Part shown: piece after piece, positions 6,701-63,872 of the stretch
Layout: each line of letters begins with the position of its first letter
Numbering within the stretch: the stretch's first letter is position 1
Assembly: GCA_963920705.1 (NCBI GenBank)
Contig: OY987231.1
Location: forward strand, 19,383,024-19,447,023
DNA from: Odiellus spinosus
Taxonomy: Eukaryota; Arthropoda; Arachnida; Opiliones; Phalangiidae
DNA: 64,000 nt
Direction of reading: 5' to 3'
The notes under the pieces: model-generated
Told to the model about the DNA's origin: nothing
Database searches by the model: none
The model's input: only the letters and a program-made list of their open reading frames with translations
Made by a program: the position numbers and the translations under genes

Positions 6701-9362
6701 TCTAGAAATCGTTCTTAGTAACAGTCCAACGCGTATGTCGTTGTGAGACATTGAACTTGTCACCGCGCGTACTGTTCCTTCGTCAAACGCCAATATCTTT
6801 AAACAGTAAGATTAACAAGAGGCTCTTTGACGCTTTTTCAAGTGCGATGGATTTTTTAAAATCGAATCTCTTTACCTTATTATTTTCCTCATAGTTTAAC
6901 TATTATAAGTTTAACAAGGACATTTTGAGATAAATTCCCCTAAAACATTAAGGATGTATATAATAAAAACCTCGTTATACCAGAAGCCGATGAAACCCTC
7001 CTTTGAAGTCTACTACTCCAATGTTCCATATAGCGCTCCTCTCTGTATGGGTAAAATTCCCAATTTTACGAGTTAGAAGGGGTCCTACTTCATTCCCCCT
7101 GTCTACTGAAAATTGGAAATTCTCTCTCTCTCCACAAACGACGGCGTTTTTTGGACGAACTCCGAGGCTGCTAGAGATATTCGCTCGACGAGCTCCCGCT
7201 CCGAAAACATCTACCGTTAGGAGGCGTACGGATCGCGCCTTTTGAGAATAACCCATACAGAGAGGGGTAGACAAGACCCGGGAGTAATAGACTTCAAAGG
7301 AGGGTTTCATCGGCTTCTGGTTATACCCAGAGACTTTAGAGAACAATGAAGTTATAGAAGTCTCAGGATCTAAAACAAGATGGGTTGTAAGGCGACGGTA
7401 GTTAGGCAAAGTGATTTTGGCGTGAAAATCGAGGCCGATCTAGTTCAAACGCTGGGATAAATAAAATTTAGGATGGGCTAAATCTAGTAGGGATGGACAG
7501 ATAAACACAAACACGAAAAGCAAACATCGAAGAGCCATTGAGTTAGAAAATCTAGAACTTAGCGGTGGATAAAATGAAGTAGAGGTAGACAAAATCAAGT
7601 AGGGATGGACAAAATCAAGTAGATGTGGGTACAAGAAAACTGGAGTGGTGAGGCCAAAGAGTTAGCATGCTGTGTCTTTCCAACGAAAGCGTTTTTAAAG
7701 ACAAACGACAACTGTTAACGAACGAAAGCGTATTTTATCGCGTAAGCTCCTGCATTTGACATTGACGGACGTAAGCATGATCGTTATAGTGACGAAAAAC
7801 AAGTTTTTTGGGTAACTAAAAAGAGATGCTTAGAGTATTAAAATCTCATTTTTGAGAAGGAACATTGGGCTTAGAAATCATCGAATTAGTCGCGGCATTT
7901 CACAATATAAATAAGGGAATATTTTTATTTAAAAAATTACCCCACTTCTTGTTTTATTTTAGAAGAAAATAAGCGAGTTAAGATTCAGTGACGCGTTTAG
8001 AAGTATTACTTTCTAAACTTTTTTTTATTATTAAGTTTTCCTTCGGCTCATATGGTTTGAAACGCCCGTCGTAATTTTATACGTATATGTAAATTACACC
8101 TATCTTAAAATGACATTGAATCGTAGCCAAGGATATCCTTTGGCCTATTGTTTCTTCTCGAAAGCTTTCGAGTTTTAAAAAGTTATATAGTGGCTCTTTT
8201 CATGATACACTTCAATGCCGCGACCATGAAAGCTTAACTCCGGTTGTTGGTGAATTGATATGGTTCATATATGTACTTGATACGGATACGCTATTGAAGA
8301 AAAAGGGTTGGTTTAACCCTAGTCATCCATGCCCAATGGTTTTATACATTTTTAATGAAACACGAGGCGTAATTGCGTCAATAATACCAAAGGGTTAATT
8401 TATGAATTTATGTGGAAAGTCTAATAAGAATTTTTGGCTCATTCCGTCTTGCTATAAGTGAAGTCACCTGCTCCTATAAGTAATTAAGATCTTGATTAGA
8501 CTTTTCAAATAGAAAAGTTGAGTACGGGAATCATTGTACTAGGAACCATCCAATTGCTCTCACTTCAAAAAGAAATGATCCCAATTTGGATCATTCCATT
8601 ATGAGGTTGATTGGTTGTTTCCTAGAGAAATAAAACCACGTTCTATCGAATAGGTTAAGTTAGGTACCTTCACTTATATATAGAAATGATCCCAATTTGG
8701 GTCATTCATATTTATGAGCCCTTAGAAATTTATTATTTTAATTATTCGGTCGAATAGGAATGTCGGTCGTAGTAGATTCGGCTGATTCTGAATCGAACCA
8801 ATGGGCAATAGCTTTATAAGAACCGACCATGACCAATGAAGGCCAACTTATAGTCTAAATTCTTCCAAATAATCTGAATTTATATCTAATAACACTGACA
8901 TTTGACGCGTAACGTTTGACCTTTGATCTTAACTGCCAACTTACTCGTAGAATAAATCCAGCAATAACACACGACGTCTTCTAATTGTTATTCATAGGTT
9001 TAAGGTTTTTGTTCGACGTGAAAACGACCCTTCAGATCAGCGACGTGACGTTCTTCCCGTCGCGAACGACTCACAGTTACGACCTGTACGCCAGCTCGGC
9101 CAACAAAGAGGATATTCTCTTCGTGAACCTGGCTGACGGCAAGGTCGAAATGATTACAGGCATTGGGAGGGCGATGGAACCTCGAGTCGCCGAATGGAGT
9201 AACACCAATAGACCCATTTCCAGCGCCGGGGTCTTCGGAACCTACATGGTCACCACGGCCAACGAGGCCATTTTCGTCGTCAACGGCAAAACACGAACTG
9301 TTAACTGCGAAATTGGCAGTATCGTCCATCCCAGAATGGTAGTGTGGGTCAAGTCACCTTGA
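482..9362 (+). CDS. FSTL5-like: Follistatin-like protein, FSTL4/FSTL5 type (5' end outside window)
   Basis: Secreted, calcium-binding, follistatin-related glycoprotein family; its molecular function is poorly known. Twelve coding exons join with consistent phases into 811 codons plus stop. In order they encode a Kazal/follistatin domain ([20 protein letters not shown]), a linker, two EF-hands with full calcium loops (DQNNNGLLEAEE and DSDHDGRLNINE), two Ig domains (Cys pairs in VEIKCDV/NYTCHA and AEMECHV/AYMCVAS) and the long FSTL5-type C-terminal domain (RYIYVSQP, FDQVWVLCWRG, and the end VVWVKSP). This order and many motifs match what I recall of vertebrate FSTL5, which is near 847 residues, so only the signal peptide and a short N-terminal part should be missing to the left. 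Most introns are phase 1, as usual for extracellular modules. FSTL4 and FSTL5 cannot be told apart here; an invertebrate single-copy ancestor is likely. Confidence 0.93.
921..1285. mobile_element. TTAA-bordered TIR element in an FSTL5-like intron
   Basis: Starts TTAAAGGGAGCATGAAG and ends TCATGCTCACTTTAA, inverted with one mismatch over the first 15 bases. About 365 bp of AT-rich interior without coding potential, lying inside the intron 704-1363. Confidence 0.7.
1364..1597 (+). CDS. FSTL5-like exon: linker before the EF-hands
   Basis: Acceptor ...ataagtag|gg; phase 1 start. It contains QQEYDFMKENLLLYNNAKLMDS, a helical segment that precedes the EF-hand pair in this family. Two in-phase donors exist: ata|gtaaga after 1585 and cag|gtattg after 1597. 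They differ by four codons, so the exact end is uncertain. Confidence 0.85.
2190..2393 (+). CDS. FSTL5-like exon: EF-hand pair
   Basis: Acceptor ttatttttag|gt and donor ttta|gtaagt. It encodes NEYLVSIMFSHYDQNNNG, then a second loop DSDHDGRLNINEF, ending YVAFS. Both 12-residue loops have acidic or Asn ligands at positions 1, 3 and 5, Gly at 6 and Glu at 12, so both should bind calcium. An alternative in-phase donor at 2406 would add four codons (KLYS). Confidence 0.9.
2920..3072. mobile_element. Short TIR element in an FSTL5-like intron
   Basis: Left end AAGCAGCGTTTACAC...AGAGACTTT, and right end, inverted, AAGCTACGTTCACAC...AGAGACTTT. About 153 bp with possible TA duplication. A related element is at 51512-51662. 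Confidence 0.65.
3313..3479 (+). CDS. FSTL5-like exon: first half of Ig domain 1
   Basis: Acceptor cattgaag|gc and donor atcaaa|gtaata, phase 1 to phase 0. It encodes SLDKALEVNDVTARVGDNVE and continues through the first Ig cysteine (IKCDVTG) and the Trp (IVWRRND). Reading past the donor soon meets a stop, which supports the splice. Confidence 0.9.
3587..3704 (+). CDS. FSTL5-like exon: second half of Ig domain 1
   Basis: Acceptor tcaaaag|gtt (phase 0) gives VFIDGSLYLTNVQLVHGGNY, then TCHAQRNNDVIQTHILHVH. This restores the family motif IKVF.DGSLYLT across the junction. Donor cata|gtaaag, phase 1. Confidence 0.9.
3821..3979 (+). CDS. FSTL5-like exon: first half of Ig domain 2
   Basis: Acceptor ttcctcgtag|cc; the codon completed across the junction gives VHTVPEVHVIP. 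It encodes the second Ig domain's first cysteine (MECHVVGMPLPQ) and Trp (VSWLKNDEE). Donor cattg|gtcggt, phase 1. Confidence 0.9.
4056..4187 (+). CDS. FSTL5-like exon: second half of Ig domain 2
   Basis: Acceptor tttatttag|gg gives GNGTALLVGKITYSDTGAYM, then CVASSSAGSRRDISSLVVQD. This is the conserved end of the second Ig domain. Donor ccga|gtaata, phase 1. Confidence 0.9.
4607..4866 (+). CDS. FSTL5-like exon: start of the C-terminal domain
   Basis: Acceptor tttgtctcacag|tc. It encodes RFFAFHDWGIAVYDPDNC through WGKAINVADRYIYVSQPTKD to VQMVVVD, matching the family pattern of a DDGI.V-type strand and a VRNRYIYVAQP-type strand. Donor gtcgac|gtaagt, a strong consensus, phase 0. Without splicing the frame stays open into the next exon (see findings). 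Confidence 0.85.
4933..5118 (+). CDS. FSTL5-like exon: C-terminal domain, FDQVWVLCWRG part
   Basis: Begins after a putative 66-nt intron ending tacaaaaag. It encodes VVVTDKYPVELHYVPHFDQV, then WVLCWRGPENRGTKTIQIIR. With the 66 nt removed, the spacing to the preceding strand equals that of human FSTL5 as I recall it. Donor gatttg|gttagt, phase 0. Confidence 0.85.
5198..5378 (+). CDS. FSTL5-like exon: C-terminal domain, FIPP part
   Basis: Acceptor tccaatag|gtt, phase 0. It encodes VSGIFIPPHQDLSHPWKYGY and continues to YNCVPQSADFASL, matching the family's FIPP and GCVPQ motifs. Donor ctctgg|gtaaac, phase 1. Confidence 0.9.
5995..6201 (+). CDS. FSTL5-like exon: C-terminal domain, GGY...SPDSRYVV part
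   Basis: Acceptor cgcttctag|ga. It encodes GGYVVLECVEPVTSRPMGQI, then LLDYLTDTVL and GPMVSPDSRYVVTLEK, matching family motifs (LGGYFFIQC, VDSVTDSVLG, SPDGRFIVS). Donor gaag|gtaata, phase 1. Confidence 0.9.
6981..7319 (-). mobile_element. Family A element, copy 1 (inside an FSTL5-like intron)
   Basis: Ends CAGAAGCCGATGAAACCC and its inverse; 7-bp duplication GTTATAC on both sides. About 339 bp. Orientation is defined relative to copies such as 31329-31664, in which CCCGGGTCTTGTCTACCCC follows the left terminal repeat. Confidence 0.93.
8561..8711. repeat. Twice-repeated dyad in an FSTL5-like intron
   Basis: AGAAATGATCCCAATTTGG occurs at about 8570 and 8681, each followed by (A/G)TCATT, itself an imperfect palindrome (AATGA..CCAATTTGG..TCATT). 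Confidence 0.5.
8998..9362 (+). CDS. FSTL5-like last coding exon
   Basis: Acceptor gttattcatag|gt after a 2.8-kb intron that carries a family A element. It encodes LFDVKTTLQISDVTFFP, then LYASSANKEDILFVNLADGK, FVVNGKTRTVNCEI and the end VVWVKSP, stop at 9360-9362. The last strands match the family's ESLFLINGRQNTLRCE...VVWVGEV. It is GC-richer than the surrounding intron. Confidence 0.92.
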
Positions 9363-9443
9363 AAAAAGAAAACAAAAAGGGGGGGGAAGGGCCAACACGC
9401 GCGATACCAAACAAATGGCCTCGATTAAATCAACCAAAATTAA

Positions 9444-9453
9444 AATAAATAAA
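9444..9453 (+). promoter_or_regulatory. Candidate poly(A) signals of the FSTL5-like gene
   Basis: Two overlapping AATAAA hexamers lie about 85 nt after the stop; a third is at 9537-9542. AT-rich DNA produces such hexamers by chance, so which one is used cannot be told. Confidence 0.4.
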
Positions 9454-63640: not shown

Positions 63641-63677
63641 GAGGAGTAATATTAGTTCTTGATATTATATGAGAGAT

Positions 63678-63872
63678 CAGAAGCCGATGAAACCCTCCTT
63701 TGAAGTCTACTACTCCAAGGCTGCTAGAGATATTCGCTCGACGAGCTCCCGCTCCGAAAACATCTACCGTTAGGAGGCGTACGAATCGCGCCTTTTGAGA
63801 ATAACCCATACAGAGAGGGGTAGACAAAACCCGGGAGTAATAGACTTCAAAGGAGGGTTTCATCGGCTTCTG
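63678..63872 (-). mobile_element. Family A element, copy 17 (internally deleted)
   Basis: 195 bp; duplication GAGAGAT. About 142 bp are missing between two occurrences of ACTCCAA, while both terminal repeats are intact. Confidence 0.93.

Follow-up and report, generated by a model that had tools for sequence, protein, structure and literature searches.

Three unrelated miniature element families with 7-bp target duplications in Odiellus spinosus very likely belong to the P superfamily

We analysed a 64,000-nucleotide stretch of the Odiellus spinosus genome (443 Mb), positions 19383024–19447023 of contig OY987231.1 and hereafter called the window, which contains 21 miniature inverted-repeat transposable elements (MITEs) of three families, A (17 copies), B (2 copies) and C (2 copies). 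The initial annotation had described them as three unrelated families that begin with CA, end with TG and lie between 7-bp target duplications, 19 of the 21 perfect. This description was confirmed in every part: exact limits were established for all the elements, the positions given earlier hold, and the ends are CA...TG in 21/21. The elements are listed by position in the window, strand and flanking duplication.

6981..7319, plus strand, family A MITE, duplication GTTATAC (6974-6980 and 7320-7326)
10719..11136, plus strand, family B MITE, duplication ATGCTAC
25998..26415, minus strand, family B MITE, duplication CAAATAT
29080..29397, minus strand, family A MITE of 318 bp, duplication ACAAGAC
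31329..31664, minus strand, family A MITE, duplication GTTTAAA
34096..34432, plus strand, family A MITE, duplication GTTTTAG
39397..39677, plus strand, family C MITE, duplication GTTAAGT
40843..41180, plus strand, family A MITE, duplication TAAACAC
42318..42654, minus strand, family A MITE, duplication TTATTAT
43443..43778, minus strand, family A MITE, duplication CTATACA
45026..45362, plus strand, family A MITE, duplication GTAATAC
46235..46571, plus strand, family A MITE inside a dispersed repeat, duplication GCCTGAT/GCGTGAT (6/7), empty site in uninterrupted relatives of the repeat
46943..47283, minus strand, family A MITE, duplication CTGTCTC
47817..48153, plus strand, family A MITE, duplication GCCGCGT
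48586..48920, plus strand, family A MITE, duplication GGTTGAT
49923..50259, plus strand, family A MITE, duplication ATATTAT
52158..52493, minus strand, family A MITE, duplication ACAAAAC
57104..57439, minus strand, family A MITE, duplication ATAAAAT
57659..57939, minus strand, family C MITE, duplication GTCATAG
62797..63137, minus strand, family A MITE, duplication GTCACAG/GTCATAG (6/7)
63678..63872, plus strand, family A MITE shortened to 195 bp with both ends present, duplication GAGAGAT

Family A elements are 335–341 bp long except for the two shorter copies (318 and 195 bp), both B elements are 418 bp and both C elements 281 bp. The terminal inverted ends extend over ∼72 bp at 82% identity in A, 41 bp at 100% in B and ∼33 bp in C. 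When the three families were compared in sequence, they had only short words in common, at chance level. Exact 21-base ends were counted throughout the genome (A, 9,358 + 9,424 = 18,782; B, 1,718 + 1,669 = 3,387; C, 1,636 + 1,600 = 3,236), and the reversed-pattern control gave 0. On the assumption of two exact ends per copy, these counts correspond to ∼9,000 copies of A and 1,600–1,700 each of B and C. The A copies of the window are clustered, with 9 of the 17 inside 9.5 kb (40843-50259); the 17 copies compare with a genome mean of ∼1.4 per 64 kb derived from the end counts.

Identical 7-mers flank 19 of the 21 window elements and the remaining two (46235 and 62797) match in 6 of 7 positions, while an exact 8-bp flanking repeat was found at none of the 21. 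As a control, the left flank of one copy was paired with the right flank of another. Chance is excluded for the window duplications, because such mismatched pairs agreed in 7/7 positions in only 1 of 420 cases (6/7 or better in 8 of 420). We then scored 80 copies from the window and elsewhere that had both ends recognised. Their loci came from the best-scoring matches and their surroundings and so are not a random sample, and copies with the same flanks were entered once. Exact 7-bp duplications were present in 62, 7 bp with one mismatch in 12 and with two mismatches in 1; the rest comprised 1 exact 8-bp duplication, 1 of 8 bp with one mismatch and 3 others. By family, the 33 A copies gave 25 exact 7-bp duplications, 5 with one mismatch, 1 with two mismatches, 1 exact 8 bp and 1 other; the 37 B copies gave 29 exact, 7 with one mismatch and 1 of 8 bp with one mismatch; and the 10 C copies gave 8 exact and 2 others. 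Thus, among the copies scored beyond the window too the duplications are mostly of 7 bp, rather than of 8 bp or of variable length.

An empty site was identified for the A copy at 46235. In 23 related rows of ∼69–80% identity the dispersed repeat spans the site uninterrupted; most of them read ...TTTAAATAGGCCTAATCCA... with the 7-mer once and one base different, some are gapped at the site, and one locus (L008) has the 7-mer GCCTGAT itself. All 21 window copies were tested in this way against the DNA gathered, and spanning relatives were found for 46235 only.

One C copy (L106, 21-302) has lost 10 bp of one end, and the end so shortened still abuts an exact 7-mer, and one B copy (L102, 21-344) lacks 11 bp and has a 6/7 match three bases further on. 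Both losses fall inside the 17 nt of the staggered cut made by the P transposase. In the P-rich part of contig C1, six C copies (L087, L088, L089, L091, L092 and L093) have nearly the same flanks, and they are probably one insertion multiplied through duplication of the surrounding DNA.

Next, we aligned the empty sites of 61 copies with exact 7-bp duplications. The insertion sites are diverse 7-mers, and their consensus is a palindromic, AT-rich target of 13 bp, TnnnTnnnAnnnA, where T occupies −3 (80%) and duplication position 2 (77%) and A occupies position 6 (81%) and +3 (80%). For each family we counted half-sites; a copy observed with its two ends contributes its inner positions twice (the duplication being present on both sides) but not its outer position. 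Outer T, inner T and inner A were present in 51, 50 and 52 of 68 half-sites of family A, in 61, 71 and 68 of 81 of family B, and in 19, 12 and 12 of 24 of family C. The outer pair, T (−3) and A (+3), is therefore common to the three families (75–79% of half-sites). The inner core nTnnnAn is clear in A and B and weak in C (p 0.06).

The initial annotation had regarded 7 bp as an unusual length and had assigned 8 bp to P elements. The latter holds for the P element itself, for which 8 bp is reported in 1,207 of 1,226 insertions (PMC3276498), but not for the whole P superfamily, so that the length is not unusual. The P-superfamily element 1360 (Hoppel) of D. melanogaster is reported to duplicate 7 bp in 274 of 279 insertions, with the motif GTTNAAC/KTNBWAB (PMC3276498), and Galileo, also a Drosophila member, typically duplicates 7 bp with the consensus GTANTAC in a target whose palindrome extends beyond the duplication (PMC4168063). 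Families A, B and C resemble 1360 in the 7 bp and in the inner target, and they resemble Galileo in the 7 bp and in a palindrome that goes past the duplication. T as the second base of the duplication and A as the last but one, as in both Drosophila elements, were found in A and B and weakly in C. The outer bases differ: the reported target halves are ANAGT/ACTNT for P and 1360 and AANGT/ACNTT for Galileo (PMC4168063), whereas in A, B and C the preferred bases are T (−3) and A (+3). Galileo also has long inverted repeats, whereas A, B and C are non-coding and mostly 281–418 bp long. As for the ends, the zebrafish THAP9 element Pdre2, which encodes a P-type THAP9 transposase, starts with CATACCTGTCAAC (CATACC) and is reported to have the same CA...TG ends but an 8-bp duplication (PMC10983969). 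Short elements with P-derived ends are described in Anopheles gambiae, where these P-MITEs were attributed to P transposases; P elements and P-MITEs there duplicate 8 bp, and a P-MITE family numbers 5 to 310 copies (PMC1562414), as against 7 bp and the far higher copy numbers of A, B and C. In a limited literature search, no 7-bp P element outside Drosophila was recognised by title or abstract.

P transposons are themselves common in this genome, with at least 150 scored matches (386 candidates) to the P-type RNase H domain. We set the ends of individual elements through comparison of copies. The element F15 (∼3.8 kb) has an open frame of 801 residues with THAP, TNP-like RNase H and GTP-binding domains. 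Its protein matches the solved structure of the Drosophila P transposase, 6p5a (phmmer E 3.3e-21), with alignment of the acidic motifs DEM, D and DIVE, which have a catalytic role. All seven F15 copies have perfect 7-bp duplications; stops interrupt the domain match in 3 of them, so not all are intact. F7 has a 626-residue frame with P domains and the ends CATGGACTC...GAGTCCATG; its duplications are perfect 7-mers in the 3/3 copies with both ends, and a fourth copy was found with one end only. Together, the two elements gave perfect 7-bp duplications in 10/10 copies checked.

A third element, F5, has an 856-residue frame with THAP and P domains and is known from one end, CATAGACTAAG. About 120 bp at the end of a further MITE family, D (∼295 bp; 314 first-look candidates, 40 scored), is common with F5 at 88–93% identity, and one local CA...TG MITE family is therefore tied to a P element. 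Nine family D copies, out of 20 fetched, had both ends: 4 with exact 7-bp duplications, 1 exact 8 bp, 1 with one mismatch, 1 with two and 2 with neither length. F16 starts with CATAGACAATAAAC, as read from where two copies diverge, and the first bases are CA in F5, F7 and F16 and CG in F15. Inner T, inner A and outer T were counted in 28, 24 and 12 of 32 half-sites of F5 and its MITEs, after removal of the F5-motif rows from L019-L021, L023, L072 and L074 as internal motif repeats, and in 12, 12 and 7 of 14 of F15. The core nTnnnAn of A and B is thus present in two of three local P families. F7 (n = 3; 1 inner T, 2 inner A, 2 outer T) and F16 (n = 2; 2 inner T, 0 inner A, 1 outer T) gave too few half-sites to judge. 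We also observed F7 inserted in an A MITE (L077, 1112-1150), its 7-bp duplication ACTACAC deriving from A sequence, and a relative of F5 inside another A MITE (L140, 1-25). F5, joined from L071, L019 and L072, has further copies of its own end motif deep inside, ∼4.6 kb along, partly as inverted pairs.

From the duplication length (7 bp, within the 7 or 8 bp of the P superfamily), the target core, the dinucleotides at the ends and the case of F5 with its MITEs, it is very likely that A, B and C are P-superfamily MITEs moved in trans by P transposases of the 7-bp type, like those of 1360 and Galileo. The CA...TG ends that all the window elements have in common with Pdre2 and several local P elements are not strictly defining. 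By analogy with P, for which a 17-nt staggered cleavage and GTP dependence are reported in Drosophila (PMC7776569), the inverted ends would be paired by a transposase that combines a THAP DNA-binding domain with an RNase H-like core, itself interrupted by a GTP-binding insertion. The element would then be excised, and the transposase would capture an AT-rich palindromic target, for which TnnnTnnnAnnnA is the motif observed. Joining of the ends to the two target strands at a 7-bp offset, followed by gap repair across these 7 bp, would leave the duplications that we observed beside one empty site. That local P transposons have a 7-bp outcome is seen from their own duplications.

Several observations weigh against this assignment. 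Transposases with THAP, RNase H and GTP-binding domains are present in the genome and family D has the end of F5, but the search gave no coding element that ends like A, B or C. No such end lay within 1.5 kb of any of 30 P loci, the flanks of five P families contained none that belonged to the P element itself, and further P copies gave 0/20 and then 0/4; the loci scanned were drawn from 150 matches, with 0.8–2 kb of flank at the expected ends. The L077 flanks contain three exact A matches, which belong to one complete A MITE and to the A MITE that F7 entered. Likewise, 20 unpaired or long-spaced ends (11 C and 9 B) led to no coding element, 17 of them being MITEs over most of their length. 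The other three (L098, L100 and L103) match B for 170–322 bp and then diverge; no exact B partner is listed nearby, and we judged them truncations. A B-like 17-mer in L010/L011 lies inside a duplicated region and was dropped. In addition, CA...TG is not found in every local P element, as F15 starts with CG. The inner core is weak in C, with T and A each in 12 of 24 half-sites, as it is in the small F7 and F16 samples. The outer T, strong in A, B and C, is not so in F5 (12/32) or F15 (7/14). As the outer T is weak in F5 and F15, neither is likely to be the actual helper of A, B and C.

The principal alternative, that A, B and C belong to a hAT lineage whose MITEs duplicate 7 bp instead of 8, we consider improbable, though part of the evidence against P membership speaks for it. 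Some hAT lineages make duplications of 5 and 6 bp. The end of B, CAGAGG, is similar to hAT ends such as that of Tol2, and the end of C, CAAGAAGG, is unlike them. hAT dimerisation domains are also common in this genome (at least 150 scored matches, 220 candidates), and nTnnnAn resembles the reported target core of the hAT element hobo, NTNNNNAN (PMC3276498), minus one base. What disfavours hAT is that only 2 of the 80 scored copies are compatible with 8 bp, including one that has a mismatch, and that the local P transposons give 7 bp (10/10 copies), the same core being present in F15 and F5. The yardstick of 8 bp is here Drosophila hobo, with 1,196 of 1,198 insertions as reported (PMC3276498), and not a local hAT family. 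A de novo scan of the DNA gathered around A, B and P elements is consistent with this, since no 8-bp family in it was judged real. The six 8-bp entries looked like palindromic extensions, and inspection by eye put the 5-, 6-, 8-, 9- and 10-bp entries down to A/B boundaries that had shifted, to extended palindromes or to the pairing of adjacent copies. The same scan yielded family E (CAAGAATCCATTC, ∼317 bp, CA...TG; 2 of 3 scored copies with exact 7 bp) and a sixth family (CAAAAGTGTACC, 368 bp, CA...TG) with a 7-bp duplication in its one copy; the control with unrelated pairing gave 0.

It is less probable still, and in our view very unlikely, that A, B and C use different transposase types that converged on 7 bp. 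Their similarity is limited to chance words, and for none of them was an autonomous partner found at the P loci and unpaired ends scanned; yet the outer T (−3) with A (+3) is found in all three and is lacking in two local P families, and a second convergence is unlikely. Dada-type elements are scarcely credible as a source. Their reported 6–7 bp duplications overlap in length, but the families described have no terminal inverted repeats and insert into small RNA genes (PMC3706591), whereas A, B and C have inverted ends (∼72, 41 and ∼33 bp) and diverse 7-mer sites; RNA genes were not searched.

Returning to P-superfamily membership, the earlier suggestion that one transposase type may mobilise all three families probably holds. 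The 7 bp, the CA...TG ends and the target TnnnTnnnAnnnA are common to all, although the inner target is weak in the C sample (12/24). The common outer T...A, without counterpart in two local P families, hints at one transposase lineage for A, B and C. More tentatively, and with somewhat less than even confidence, we propose that all three are mobilised by one unseen P-superfamily lineage with a 13-bp target of its own, distinct from those of F5, F15 and Drosophila 1360 and Galileo.

The apparent anomaly of a 7-bp duplication is thereby removed, as it points to the P superfamily and not to a new transposase. High-copy families that resemble P-MITEs and have 7-bp duplications can now be compared with the 8-bp, lower-copy P-MITEs reported from Anopheles. 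Within one genome, P families have the 7-bp spacing in common, two of them have the inner core of A and B, and the outer target bases differ; this contrast between inner and outer target should help in studying how P transposases select their sites. If a single unseen lineage does serve A, B and C, P target choice becomes testable through sequence comparison, and the ∼9,000 A copies estimated from end counts would be, to our knowledge, the largest P-MITE expansion.

Other repeats were also observed in the window. A short dispersed repeat (GCTGCGTTCACAC...) is present at 31893-32047 and 48154-48306, the second copy starting immediately to the right of A element 47817-48153. Tandem arrays begin at 23574 (30-bp unit) and 35123 (28-bp unit) and occupy 56529-56844 (42-bp unit) and 52905-53624 (30-bp unit), the last of which can be read as an open YGDASKLCLN repeat.

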